Origin: Labrenzia sp. DG1229
Lineage (GTDB): Bacteria > Pseudomonadota > Alphaproteobacteria > Rhizobiales > Stappiaceae
Length of the DNA: 64,000 nucleotides
Direction: 5' to 3'
NCBI RefSeq assembly: GCF_000521215.1
Contig: NZ_KI928918.1
Location: 16,341-80,340 of the forward strand
Part shown: positions 3,462 through 21,817 of the stretch, piece by piece
Layout: every line of letters starts with the position of its first letter
How positions within the stretch are numbered: the first letter of the stretch is position 1
Position numbers and translations under genes: made by a program
Notes under the pieces: generated by a model
What the model was told of the DNA's origin: nothing
Database searches by the model: none
What the model saw: only the letters and a program-made list of their open reading frames with translations

Positions 3462-4535
3462 GTGCATTTGGTAAAGTCGGACAACCTCATCGACCGCGGC
3501 CTGCGAGCTGCGGAATACAACATTTTCGAGCAGAACAGGATATGGGCTCGCTATTCGAACGAGAAGCCTGATGTCGCGGCAAGCCTGATGAGAACTATCC
3601 GGGCACTTCATTCGAGAATGACGGATGACCGCGAGCTATCGGCACTGTCCGTCGGAGCCGGCAACGAACCGCAATTCAGGATCCTGCAGGCCGCATTTCA
3701 ACGCGGTCTCTGGCTTTACGACATAGACGGAGCTGCGCTTGCGACGATCCGGGAGCGGCAGGTGCGCCAGGCACTGGAAACGGTTCGTCTGGTGCAGGGT
3801 GACTACAGGCGTGATTTTCAGAACAGTTCCGTTGCCCGGCAATCACTCGAAACGATCTTCGATGGACAAAGGCAGGATCTCATCACGCTTCACCATTGCC
3901 TTTATTATTCGAAGGCCAGCGAGTGGCCTTGCCTGGTTAGGGCTCTTTACGATCAAGTGCTGACGCCAACCGGCGCAATTCACATGGTCATGATGTCGGC
4001 GAGAGAAACGGCTCCCTTTACGACGACCTGGCTCTACAATCATTTTGCCGGCGAGTATTTCGGGTCTTCAACAGATCAGGATTTGCCCGGCCTTCGACAC
4101 GAACTGAGCCACAACAAGGGTCTGATTGACTGCGAGTTTGTCTCGGAAACACACAAGGTCCAGTTCTGGGTCGATGATTTCGATCTCTTCATGTCCGTCG
4201 TCTGGATGATACTTCTTTATCCGCAAGGGCATGACTATTCCCTGGACCAGAAGATCGAGATTACGGAGTTTATCATCGAACACTTCTGGTTGCCGCAACG
4301 CCCGCTGGTGCAAACGCAGGACTACGTCACGCTGCACAAGTCTGGTTCCGACAGGGCGCCGTCATGGTATCGGGGAGCCGGTCTGAATACGGCGGCTGGC
4401 TCGTCGTTTGAAGTCCAGCCGGACTACGCGGATATGGATGTACACGGCAAGGACCGGCACACCTGGCCCCGTGGAACCGCCGATGCGCCTGAAGCGCATC
4501 GGCGCAAGGGAACTGCCGCATACGGTCCCCGGTAA
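3462..4535 (+). CDS. Class I SAM-dependent methyltransferase, histamine-N-methyltransferase-like
   Basis: I place the start at GTG 3462, because CGGAGGG (3448-3454) sits seven bases upstream; the frame is also open from a TTG at 3423. The product is 357 residues. LSALSVGAGNEPQF is the glycine-rich SAM motif I, LYDIDGAAL the acidic loop after strand 2, and LITLHHCLYYSKASEWPCLV resembles the HNMT/EgtD-type post-II motif. The last ~60 residues (from THKSGSDRAPSWYRG) are hydrophilic and look unlike the family. The substrate is unknown; small amines are a guess from the motif. No biosynthetic neighbours are present. Confidence 0.72.
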   Translation: MHLVKSDNLIDRGLRAAEYNIFEQNRIWARYSNEKPDVAASLMRTIRALHSRMTDDRELSALSVGAGNEPQFRILQAAFQRGLWLYDIDGAALATIRERQVRQALETVRLVQGDYRRDFQNSSVARQSLETIFDGQRQDLITLHHCLYYSKASEWPCLVRALYDQVLTPTGAIHMVMMSARETAPFTTTWLYNHFAGEYFGSSTDQDLPGLRHELSHNKGLIDCEFVSETHKVQFWVDDFDLFMSVVWMILLYPQGHDYSLDQKIEITEFIIEHFWLPQRPLVQTQDYVTLHKSGSDRAPSWYRGAGLNTAAGSSFEVQPDYADMDVHGKDRHTWPRGTADAPEAHRRKGTAAYGPR

Positions 4536-17824: not shown

Positions 17825-20011
17825 TTACAAGGCCTCTTCGCGTTCGCGGCTCTTCGCCGTAACAAGCCGGCTGACAACATTTTCGATGATCATGTGTCCT
17901 GCATCCTGATCCAGTGACATGATGGACTCCGGATGGAACTGGACAGCGGCAATGGCCTCTTTCTCGTGTTCTATTGCCATGACAACACCATCCTCGGTCT
18001 CAGCTGTTACGCGAATGTCGCCGGGTAGCGTCGCGCGCCTTGCAAACAACGAATGATAGCGGCCAACGATCACTGGCGCGTTGAGGCCGTCAAAGAGCAG
18101 GGAATTCCCCGAGATGCTGATCGGTGACGGTTTGCCGTGCATTGGAATATCCAGCTGGCCGAGTTCCGCACCGAAATACTCCGAAAGCGCCTGCAATCCG
18201 AGGCAGACGCCGAAGATCGGCAACGCGCGGGCGCGGGCTCGCCCGATTGTCGCTGCGCAGTCGAAGTCCTTCGGGTTGCCGGGTCCTGGTGACAGAACAA
18301 CCAGGTCCGGATTGACGTCGTGAAAGACATGGTCGGCAACCGGCGTTCTGTAGGTAACGACGTCGGCGCCCGTTTGCCGGAAATAATTCGCAAGTGTGTG
18401 CACGAAACTGTCTTCGTGATCCACGAGCAGGATCTTCAAGCCCTCACCAGGCTTGTGGGTTTCCGTCGTTTCGGCGGAACGGGTCGCCAGGCCAGCTTCG
18501 CGAACCGCCGCTCGCATGGCTTCCGCCTTGAGTTCGGTTTCCGCTTCTTCGTCTTCCGGAACACTGTCGTAAAGCAGTGTTGCGCCTGCCCGGATCTGCG
18601 CCAGTCCGTCCTTGATGCGGACGGTCCGGAGTGTCAGGCCCGTGTTCATGTCGCCATTGAAGAGAACGGCACCGATGGCCCCGCCGTACCAGGCACGCGG
18701 TGACTTTTCGTGATCCTCGATGAACTGCATCGCCCACCGTTTCGGCGCCCCTGTCACCGTGACCGCCCAGGTATGGGAGAGGAAGGCGTCCAGCGCATCC
18801 ATGTCCTCGCGAAGAGTACCTTCGATATGATCCACCGTGTGGATCAACCGGGAATACATCTCAATCTGCCGCCGACCGATCACCTTGACCGAGCCAGGGA
18901 CACAAACCCGGCTCTTGTCGTTTCGGTCGACATCGGAACACATGGTCAGCTCCGCCTCGTCCTTTGCCGAATTCAACAGCTTGCGGATCTGCGCCTCGTC
19001 CTCGATCGCATTCTTGCCGCGCCGGATCGTGCCGGAGATCGGGCAGGTCTCCACGCGGCGGCCACCTGTGACACGCACATACATTTCCGGCGAAGCCCCG
19101 ACGAGGTACTCGTTGTTGCCGAGGTTGAAAAAGAACGAGTAGGGGGAAGGGTTGATCTGGGCAAGGCGCCTGGAAACAGCCGAGGGCGGGTTGGCACAGG
19201 GCTCATAGAATGTTTGCCCTGGAACGGTCTCGAACAGATCGCCCCGCCGGAAATAATCCTTCGCCTTTTCGACCAGTTCGGCATATTCGCCCGGTTCATG
19301 ATCTCCCCGGCCAGGGTCTTTGTTAGCCGGTGCGTAGGAACTTTGTTCGCCCGTTCGTTCGAGGTCCTTCGTGGTCTTGCCGTTCACCACAAAATCGTAT
19401 TCCAGCACATAGGCCCGTTTTCCGTGGTGATCGACAATCAGGATTTCGTCCGGGAGAAACAGAACGACATCACGCTGATTGTGAGGTCTTTCCAGCTTCT
19501 GGTCGATCGGTTCGAACTGGAAGGCCACATCATAGCCGAAGGCTCCGTAGAGGCCGAGTTGGTCATCGCCGCAGGCAAAAAGGTCCTTCAGCGCCCGAAC
19601 GATTGAAAATGTCGACGGCTGACGGGAGCGTTCCTCTTCATTGAAGAGGCGGTCCGGTTTCTTGACCGTAAGTTCAATCCTGTCATGGCCGGCATCAAAG
19701 GTTTCAACGACATCGTGTGTTCGCAAGGCCTCGGCGATTGCGGGTATGAGTACCTTGCCCCGGTCGTTCAAGGCACGTATCTCGACCTTTCGGTCGGCAG
19801 CCTCCAGAACAAGAGGGGGATTGACCAGCGCCATGTCCCAGCGGGTGTAGCGGCCGGGGTACTCGTAGGACGAAGAAAGAACCGCGCCCAGTTCGCCGTC
19901 GAGCCGGTCGATCCAATCGGACGTTCCGGTTTCGTAGTCGGAGGGGCGTGAGGTCCGAAGGATCGTAATCCCGCTTTCGGTTTCATAGGTCTGATCTGCC
20001 AGTACCGGCAT
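17825..20011 (-). CDS. trpE(G): Anthranilate synthase, fused TrpE-TrpG
   Basis: This 728-residue fusion makes anthranilate from chorismate and glutamine, the first step of tryptophan synthesis. The TrpE part (about 1-510) holds [20 protein letters not shown], the catalytic [28 protein letters not shown] and [10 protein letters not shown]. The TrpG glutaminase (about 520-720) holds [24 protein letters not shown], the nucleophile in GVCLGLQAL (Cys603) and the QFHPES pair (His693, Glu695). Such fusions are typical of Rhizobiales-like alphaproteobacteria. A Trp-codon leader and attenuator stand just upstream, so expression should follow tryptophan supply. Confidence 0.97.
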
Positions 20012-20050
20012 GGTCTTTCCGTTCCCGTTTCTGGTGGCCGTTTGCGACGT

Positions 20051-20149
20051 TGGCGGCCTCTTAATGCACCAAGGCCGCCAGCGGTATCCCGCGGCGGCCT
20101 TTGGTGAATTGCTTGATCCTTTCAGAGCATGACTGTTCGCTGGCCGCCT
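20051..20149 (-). promoter_or_regulatory. trp attenuator: four mutually complementary GC segments
   Basis: On the minus strand, after the leader peptide's Trp codons, four segments can pair in turn. Segment A (20148-20142) overlaps the trpL stop; B is at 20101-20093, C at 20080-20071 and D at 20059-20051. A:B pairs over 7 bases, B:C over 9 and C:D over 9, the usual 1:2, 2:3, 3:4 design. No clear U-run follows the C:D hairpin, unlike a normal intrinsic terminator, so the mode of termination is uncertain. Confidence 0.75.
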
Positions 20150-20195
20150 ATATCGCGCCGCGCCACCACCATACTGCTTTCTGGGTCATCTTCAT
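20148..20195 (-). CDS. trpL: trp leader peptide with three tandem Trp codons
   Basis: An open frame of 15 codons reads [15 protein letters not shown] and stops at 20148, 136 bases before trpE(G) on the same strand. Three consecutive TGG codons (20171-20163) are the hallmark of a trp leader: ribosome stalling there when charged tRNA-Trp is scarce would switch the downstream hairpins. The start may be ATG 20195 or the third codon (ATG 20189); neither has a strong ribosome site. In rhizobia the terminated leader RNA and the peptide also act in trans; whether that holds here is unknown. Confidence 0.88.
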
Positions 20196-20416
20196 GAAAC
20201 GACGCATAGCTGAAGCGCGATGGGAAGGCAATGGTCTATTGTCAGTGGAGGAAAAAACAGTCGTTTTTGATCAATTTGCGGCCTTGGTCCACGCGTTATT
20301 TTCGCGAACTCTTGACCCGGGAACAAAGATGCTGTCTTGCAGTGCCTCGGCAGACATAAACGCCATGGGGAACCGGCGAGAAAACGTCGCGTTGGTCGGA
20401 CGGCATTGAGGGGCAC

Positions 20417-21817
20417 ATGGAACACTACGATCTTATCGTGATCGGCAGCGGGCCGGCGGGCCGTCGGGCGGCGATCCAGGCAGCGAAATTCGGGCGTGAC
20501 GTTCTGGTGGTGGAACGGGGCCGCAGGGTAGGCGGTGTCTCGGTTCACACCGGAACAATCCCCTCAAAAACACTGCGAGAGACAGTTCTGAACCTGACGG
20601 GATGGCGCGAGCGCGGATTTTACGGAAGCTCCTATCGTGTCAAGCAGGACCTGACCGCCGCCGATCTCAGGGCACGGCTCCACATCACGCTCAACCACGA
20701 AGTGGATGTTCTTGAACATCAGTTTTCCCGCAACAAGGTCCACACTGTCCGGGGTGAAGCACGCTTTGTCGACAGCCATATGATCGAGGTGGAAGGCGAT
20801 GCCGGAGAGATCCTGAAATACAGCGCGGACAAATTTGTCATCGCCGTCGGGACCAATCCCTTTCGTCCCGGCTATGTTCCCTTCGACGGCAAATTCGTGC
20901 TCGACAGCGATGAGATTCTCGATCTGGGCGAGATCCCACGCTCGATCGCCGTTATCGGGGCAGGGGTTATCGGCGTGGAATATGCCTCGATCTTCTCCGC
21001 TCTCGACGTTCACGTGACACTCATCGAACCCCGGGAAACGATGCTGGATTTTCTGGACAAGGAACTTGTCGCCGATTTCAACCATCAATTGCGGGACCGC
21101 GGAATCGCCATGCGCTTCGGAGCCAAGGTTGAAGCAATTGAAAAGCATGGTCCTGCGGATTGCGAGATCAAGCTGGAGGGGGGGCGGAGCGTTCGCTCCA
21201 ACGTCATCCTTTTTGCCGCCGGCCGCATGGGCGCGACACCTTCGCTCAATCTGGACAGTTGCGGGTTGTCGGTTGACCACCGTGGCCGCCTGAAGGTCGA
21301 TCCCGAAACGTTTCAGACTGAAGTTTCCCATATCTTTGCCGCCGGCGACGTAATCGGCTTTCCGAGTCTCGCCTCGACGTCGATGGAGCAGGGGCGTATC
21401 GCGTCGTGCCACGCTCTGGGCGAAGCAGCACACGATCCACCCGAGTACTTTCCATACGGAATTTACGCGGTTCCGGAAATCTCGACTGTCGGCATGACGG
21501 AAGAGGAAATCAAGGAACGCGGAATTCCATATGAGTGCGGTGTTGCAAGGTTTCGCGAAACGTCACGCGGACATATCATGGGCCTCGATACGGGCATGCT
21601 CAAGATGATCTTTTCGCTTAAGACCAGGCGGCTGCTTGGTTGCCATATTGTCGGGGAAGGGGCGACCGAACTGGTTCATATCGGTCAGGCAGTCTTGAAC
21701 CTGCGCGGCACGTTGGAATATTTTGTCGAAAACACTTTCAACTATCCGACACTCGCCGAAGCCTACAAGATTGCCGCGCTGGATGCGTGGAACCGGATGC
21801 CGCCTTTGGAAGATTAG
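20417..21817 (+). CDS. sthA: Soluble pyridine nucleotide transhydrogenase
   Basis: This 466-residue flavoprotein transfers hydride between NADPH and NAD+. It has the FAD motif DLIVIGSGPAGRRAAIQAAK and the NAD(P) motif IAVIGAGVIGVEYASIFSAL. The motif GTIPSKTLRE replaces the redox Cys pair of lipoamide dehydrogenases, which points to SthA rather than Lpd. IFAAGDVIGFPSLASTSMEQ and a C-terminal dimerisation domain (YPTLAEAYKIAALDAWNR) follow. It is cytoplasmic and balances NADPH. It is divergent from the trp leader, and 115 bases separate it from the next gene. Confidence 0.94.
   Translation: MEHYDLIVIGSGPAGRRAAIQAAKFGRDVLVVERGRRVGGVSVHTGTIPSKTLRETVLNLTGWRERGFYGSSYRVKQDLTAADLRARLHITLNHEVDVLEHQFSRNKVHTVRGEARFVDSHMIEVEGDAGEILKYSADKFVIAVGTNPFRPGYVPFDGKFVLDSDEILDLGEIPRSIAVIGAGVIGVEYASIFSALDVHVTLIEPRETMLDFLDKELVADFNHQLRDRGIAMRFGAKVEAIEKHGPADCEIKLEGGRSVRSNVILFAAGRMGATPSLNLDSCGLSVDHRGRLKVDPETFQTEVSHIFAAGDVIGFPSLASTSMEQGRIASCHALGEAAHDPPEYFPYGIYAVPEISTVGMTEEEIKERGIPYECGVARFRETSRGHIMGLDTGMLKMIFSLKTRRLLGCHIVGEGATELVHIGQAVLNLRGTLEYFVENTFNYPTLAEAYKIAALDAWNRMPPLED

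Follow-up and report, generated by a model that had tools for sequence, protein, structure and literature searches.

A trp leader of the Rhizobiales trpL kind in Roseibium, with conserved clade-specific segments behind its likely terminator hairpin

The leader that precedes trpE(G) in the stretch of Labrenzia sp. DG1229 DNA analyzed here (64,000 nucleotides, hereafter the window) is, to judge from comparison with its relatives, an attenuator of a known kind to which one Roseibium clade has added two segments, D and E, and an ACGGG block (Table 1). We think it quite probable that it acts as a ribosome-dependent transcription attenuator of the Rhizobiales trpL–trpE(G) kind. When tryptophan is low, the ribosome would stall at the Trp codons of the leader peptide, leaving segment A, 14 nt farther on, free to pair with B as it emerges; A:B would prevent timely formation of B:C, and RNA polymerase would read on into trpE(G). 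When tryptophan is high, the ribosome would reach the stop codon and cover A, B would stay free, B:C would form, and the polymerase would stop in a short U-tract, so that a leader RNA resembling rnTrpL/RcsR1 would be released. D, which would be made only in the read-through RNA, could take up C beside A:B, or A beside B:C. In our view its effect is most likely kinetic, so that it would settle the read-through RNA after the decision has been made.

The trpE(G) product of the window, whose source genome measures 7.6 Mb, shares 99% identity with that of Roseibium album CECT 5095 (L002), and by this measure the source genome is very close to R. album. No other trp genes were recognized by eye among the window ORFs at 15–25 kb, and blastn gave no plasmid match to the leader. 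The predicted fold of the 184-nt leader has an energy of −77.5 kcal/mol against a shuffle mean of −57.9 (z = −4.75), and none of 200 shuffles was as good. Read from the minus strand, complementarity amounts to 7 bp for A:B, 9 bp for B:C, and 9 bp for C:D; an earlier note, made from the letters alone, had given these coordinates and pairings correctly for its four GC-rich segments, and likewise the 15-codon minus-strand ORF with TGG TGG TGG and the ACGTCGC directly after D. In their cores A equals C and B equals D, so that the full-length leader could adopt either of two mutually exclusive folds, one combining A:B with C:D and the other B:C with A:D. Comparison of the leader across relatives, which the note had suggested, found the three-Trp-codon leader in 44 of 45 Roseibium genomes, the exception (L115) having one Trp codon. 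In a tree of TrpE(G), 32 Roseibium species form a clade with support 100/99 (the clade below; the placement of L122, which was in the wrong frame, was disregarded).

Table 1. Features of the trp leader region and their positions in the window
Feature	Position	Strand	Remarks
-35-like box TTGCCT	20226..20231	minus	Constant distance to trpL ATG in nearly all Roseibium leaders inspected
-10-like box CTATGC	20204..20209	minus	16 nt past the -35-like box, 8 nt ahead of trpL ATG
trpL leader ORF	20195-20148	minus	15 codons and stop; read directly; related ORFs in relatives
Three consecutive Trp codons TGG TGG TGG	20171-20163	minus	Three Trp codons in 32/32 clade species
Segment A GGCGGCC	20148-20142	minus	Shares one base with the trpL stop codon; putative antiterminator arm
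Segment B core AAGGCCGCC	20101-20093; with extensions 20089..20106	minus	5' arm of the predicted terminator hairpin; B:C covariation in 32 Rhizobiales leaders
Segment C core TGGCGGCCTT	20080-20071; with extensions 20067..20084	minus	3' arm of the predicted terminator hairpin; B:C covariation
U-tract TTGGTGCATTAA, short and interrupted	20061..20072	minus	First six bases paired within the extended stem (predicted fold)
Segment D AGGCCGCCA	20059-20051	minus	Complement of C (9 bp) and of A (7 bp)
Box E GCCACCA	20032..20038	minus	Conserved, identity 0.82; possible 7 bp with the Trp codons, candidate partner
ACGGGA and weak trpE(G) ribosome binding region	20015..20028	minus	ACGGG invariant in 32/32; ACGGGA identity 0.95; weak SD
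trpE(G), fused anthranilate synthase, 728 aa	17825..20011	minus	Pfam Chorismate_bind, GATase, Anth_synt_I_N

Relatives were taken as the best 80 of 396 loci with a related trpE(G) (28 Roseibium, 52 outgroup), and covariation was measured in 32 Rhizobiales leaders hand-chosen from these 80 for diversity, 12 of them from Roseibium. Leaders from Pseudovibrio, Stappia, Rhizobium, and others have one hairpin followed by a T-run, and this hairpin aligns with B:C of the window. Across the 32 Rhizobiales leaders, B:C is paired in 91.4% of cells and 7 of its 11 pairs are changed on both sides; the 25 double-changed cells compare with 8.2 expected, a number reached in none of 500 shuffles and lying above every slid control. 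Five of the six Ts in the 61-nt tail after C of the window fall within its first 10 nt (hypergeometric p = 2.4e-4). In all 32 clade species B:C is richer in trailing T than C:D, with a mean per 12 nt of 6.7 (range 5–8) after the B:C core and 2.0 (0–4) after C:D. Because of the covariation, the aligned T-runs in relatives, and the clustering of T after C, B:C and not C:D is, on this comparative evidence, the terminator homologue across the order. The earlier note had assigned the terminator to C:D, which these results do not support; its observation that no U-tract is present holds for C:D and fails for B:C.

The B:C stem is predicted to have 17 pairs and a 4-nt loop. The U-tract behind it is interrupted in the window (5 T in 12 nt) and scores 3.22, close to the clade mean of 3.36, whereas 51 outgroup leaders average 4.50 (range 2.70–5.64), six of them scoring no higher than the window; in this scoring, the candidate stem end with the most T behind it was taken, and L052 was left out. 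A consensus scan of positions 19500–20700 returned no promoter-like and two terminator-like sites, neither of the latter at B:C or C:D. Because the U-tract is weak and B:C is absent from this simple scan, termination at B:C may be poor in vivo.

A:B and B:C are mutually exclusive helices that share arm B, and A:B is most likely the antiterminator. In the 32 Rhizobiales leaders 92.9% of A:B cells are paired, but A is nearly invariant, and compensatory change is almost absent (three double-changed cells, a count reached in 69 of 500 shuffles). The more informative feature is where A lies. When the search for the A motif ran from the stop codon over about 30 nt, 92 of 97 leaders had its first base between −1 and +4 nt relative to the end of that codon (32/32 in the clade, 12/13 in other Roseibium, and 48/52 in the outgroup), the other five (L033, L036, L052, L080, and L115) being dropped as unmeasured, L052 after mis-anchoring at a chance TGGTGG. 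Its distance from the last Trp codon is 9–15 nt in these 92 leaders and 14–15 nt in the clade. A ribosome reaches roughly 12–15 nt ahead of its P site. One standing on the Trp codons would thus leave A largely free, and one that has reached the stop codon would cover it, which predicts read-through when tryptophan is low and termination when it is high. The Trp codons, A, B, and C have identities of 0.95–0.98 over the 32 clade species. The loop between A and B, to which no pairing is assigned, has an identity of 0.71, little below that of D; within it, the clade keeps a CATG core (20128–20131) nearly or fully invariant, and conservation of the TG of this core is at least 90% in the 32 Rhizobiales leaders.

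The transcript is predicted to start at or beside the trpL ATG, from the placement of the -35-like and -10-like boxes, so that trpL is probably leaderless. The TTGCCT–CTATGC–ATG layout is common to nearly all Roseibium leaders inspected. Identity over 31 promoters is 1.00 for the -35-like box, in part by construction because the box was sought by the pattern TTGC[CG], 0.68 for the -10 region, and 0.46 for the spacer; the evidence for a promoter is therefore the constant distance together with the diverged spacer. For S. meliloti, a trpL attenuator has been described whose rnTrpL RNA begins at the trpL ATG (PMC7298713), and RcsR1 and rnTrpL share the position from which they are transcribed (PMC7143759).

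The S. meliloti trpL–trpE(G) system (rnTrpL/RcsR1, peTrpL) shares with the present leader the gene it precedes, the consecutive Trp codons in a short peptide, and the start at ATG, which for Roseibium is a prediction. In relatives in the Rhizobiaceae that match RcsR1, A likewise lies at the stop codon and the terminator hairpin has the same core. The Rfam model RcsR1 (RF02552) reaches 19.7 bits in the window (E = 0.13) against a cut-off of 60, with its terminator stem aligned to B:C. Among five further loci searched, it gives 110 bits in Rhizobium (L074), where the match ends at the U-run of the B:C-equivalent hairpin, 83.5 in Ferirhizobium (L070), and nothing at the cut-off in L002, L018, and L037. 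Taken together, these comparisons indicate that the leader probably works like rnTrpL and that it sits at the same place; by Rfam's RcsR1 cut-off it is no member of that family. Unlike the S. meliloti system, the present leader has an interrupted U-tract, an extended terminator stem, the added D and E, a weak trpE Shine–Dalgarno sequence (SD), and a sub-cut-off RcsR1 score. In a literature search that covered mostly openly available papers, we found no description of D, E, or a Roseibium trp leader.

D lies 9–11 nt past C in 32 of 32 clade species. It pairs with C at 10 of 10 positions in 23 species, at 9 in five, and at 8 in four, as against shuffled tails (shuffled preserving letter composition only, not dinucleotides) that reach at least 8 in 53% of cases, at least 9 in 9.1%, and 10 in 0.5%. 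Because 53% of shuffles reach 8, the four species with 8 of 10, which belong to one subgroup, are no evidence by themselves apart from the fixed distance. Among 31 distinct rows, 18 of 19 departures in the inner eight C:D pairs keep a G-U pair, as do 5 of 12 in the outermost pair; no double changes occur in C:D among the clade rows, because C hardly varies. The identities of D (0.78), E (0.82), and ACGGGA (0.95) in the clade stand against 0.35 for the D–E spacer, 0.46 for the promoter spacer, and 0.52 for the stretch between ACGGGA and the ATG. The ACGGG adjoining E does not vary at all among the 32 species, and E itself is altered in L084, L086, L096, and the L104 group. D keeps its pairs with A in 99.1% and with C in 97.1% of cells; it fits C at 8–10 of 10 positions and A at 6–8, with both at 8 in L104, L106, L107, and L109, and it should be noted that the D window was picked by its fit to C. 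We favor C over A as the partner of D, short of regarding this as proven.

The trpE SD is weaker in the clade (mean −4.6 kcal/mol) than in the 52 outgroup leaders (−7.8), and −6 kcal/mol or better is reached by none of the 32 clade leaders and by 44 of the 52. We place no weight on Mann–Whitney values for the SD or the U-tract, which assume independent species; the clade is one event. Outside the clade, a weak SD is likewise present in L115 and L124–L126, and a D-like segment occurs at a different distance in L123, which suggests that the clade features may not have appeared simultaneously.

Fold calculations bear on what D could do. With a stalled ribosome and the window sequence up to D, the predicted structure is A:B with C:D if B:C is forbidden and B:C with A:D if it is allowed. 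At equilibrium with a stalled ribosome the clade leaders favor B:C by 12.3 kcal/mol; the read-through state must therefore be a kinetic one. We considered D as a thermodynamic lock and rejected this, the mean gain being 0.0 kcal/mol (range −5.5 to 11.8) in the 32 clade leaders; D serves both states, and its average effect on the balance of folds is nil in the clade. The gain in 33 Rhizobium leaders averages 2.0 kcal/mol.

In the E. coli trp attenuator, the first segment overlaps the Trp codons. What that system and the present one have in common is that the position of a ribosome on a Trp-codon ORF selects between exclusive hairpins; in Roseibium, however, A overlaps the stop codon, three segments suffice, and no U-run follows C:D. 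The earlier note's identification of a ribosome-stalling attenuator of trpE(G) is borne out by position, conservation, and covariation, but the classic E. coli segment logic that it invoked does not carry over. A scheme in which A:B is a protector, B:C the antiterminator, and C:D a terminator helped by Rho for want of a U-run behind it seems very unlikely to us. The four segments and their complementarities do exist and all 32 clade species retain D, yet the hairpin whose homologue has a U-run in relatives is B:C, trailing T is sparse after C:D, and, because A sits on the stop codon, the E. coli order of events would here invert the response. Neither a first segment masked by the stalled ribosome nor a 3:4 hairpin with a U-run was found. 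The Rho-assisted termination proposed in the note also gained nothing from a search, in itself a weak test, of the leader and the start of trpE(G), where the largest C-minus-G excess in 78 nt was 12, reached by 74% of shuffles. We give just as little credence to a decaying attenuator, in which the U-tract and SD have weakened as control became less important, with D and E as by-products: the weaker average U-tract and SD and the loss of two of three Trp codons in L115 would fit, but the high identities of the Trp codons, A, B, and C do not, nor does the conservation of D, E, and ACGGGA amid diverged spacers in 32 species.

Two other possibilities concern control of trpE(G) translation. One, which we regard as rather unlikely, is a two-stage switch in this clade, whereby the trpL ribosome would set termination and then, via D, E, and ACGGG, the translation or stability of the read-through mRNA. 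The other is a partial shift to translational control, compatible with the core mechanism, in which, as long as no ribosome occupies trpL, A:D and pairing of the Trp codons with E would close a long structure against the weak ribosome binding site, and a ribosome stalled at the Trp codons would open it. E and ACGGG are indeed conserved just upstream of trpE(G), the clade consensus fold closes A:D and pairs the Trp codons with the E region, and the clade SD is the weaker one. There is also a precedent of sorts in the LEU element of Actinobacteria, in which a run of leucine codons was described as pairing with the leuA Shine–Dalgarno box, although its authors favored a binding protein over leader-peptide control (PMC1262725). 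Both have a run of regulatory codons that possibly pairs near the start of the first gene; the LEU element has a proposed pseudoknot, whereas Roseibium has a terminator hairpin, and its pairing with E is only a candidate. Calculated for three ribosome positions in 96 leaders (32 clade, 12 other Roseibium, and 52 outgroup; L115 dropped), the energy needed to open the ribosome binding site in the clade is 11.2 kcal/mol with the RNA free, 11.9 with the ribosome stalled, and 10.5 with it at the stop codon, thus showing no fall on stalling. The free value exceeds the stalled one by more than 2 kcal/mol in 2 of 32 clade and 17 of 52 outgroup leaders, which runs counter to expectation; for the window alone the opening energy does fall on stalling, by 2.3 kcal/mol. 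Only 8 of the 32 clade species pair their Trp codons with the tail better than shuffles do (p < 0.05; 50 outgroup leaders were counted, L052 and L061 being dropped), the Trp codons show no covariation with E, and the changes in E in several members also speak against it, as does the fact that one clade is one event. Action on translation, which the earlier note had raised, is thus possible yet disfavored by the accessibility calculation, and we hold a partial shift of this kind to be unlikely. Finally, the released leader RNA and peptide could be the main product, acting on other RNAs, while D and E tune read-through marginally. This too is compatible with the core mechanism, and the shared position, a promoter placed for leaderless trpL, and the trans roles reported for S. 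meliloti rnTrpL and peTrpL (PMC7298713, PMC7143759) are in its favor; we nevertheless think it quite unlikely, as it leaves D and E, both outside the terminated RNA, unexplained.

A D-like segment is also found in Rhizobium. Reading all 33 leaders fetched from the genus (54 of 60 genomes matched the pattern), which are close relatives rather than independent cases, we found GC[CT]GCC within about 20 nt past the U-run in 31, the exceptions being L193 and L202. These leaders (L074 and L170–L202) share a D-like segment with Roseibium; by eye, most differ in having a GGAG-type SD and no E/ACGGG block. Because the D-like segment accompanies a long U-run there (GGCGGCTTTTTT), it is not enough to see D as a repair for an absent one. 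A D-like segment after a full U-run is also seen in L076, and in L074 it falls outside the Rfam RcsR1 match, past its end. For the reading of leaders away from model organisms, the point is that the terminator was found by order-wide covariation and not by counting segments. A complement of C behind the terminator, in the Roseibium clade and in Rhizobium, poses the question of whether RNA made past the termination point feeds back on the antiterminated fold. Should D and E act on translation, the leader would be a trp attenuator that operates at two levels.

A few individual leaders deserve mention. The trpL of L115 (genome G011) has its one Trp codon within the sequence TAKRWRDA, as read by eye, and retains A, B, and C, making it a naturally weakened sensor. 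In L097 (the same as L008), trpL contains an internal five-codon repeat, MNTILKAACLKAAWWWRGAK, apparently an in-frame duplication. In Roseibium G034 (L163, about 1460–1609 and 4030–4240) the intact trp leader is preceded, ∼2.5 kb upstream, by a partial second copy that runs from the -10 box through the B:C hairpin and lacks D and E. Between the two leaders are two opposite-strand genes, one with a phosphoribosyltransferase domain, and farther upstream is an ORF that by eye resembles a transposase; the arrangement has the look of an insertion at the trp terminator hairpin, accompanied by a direct duplication.
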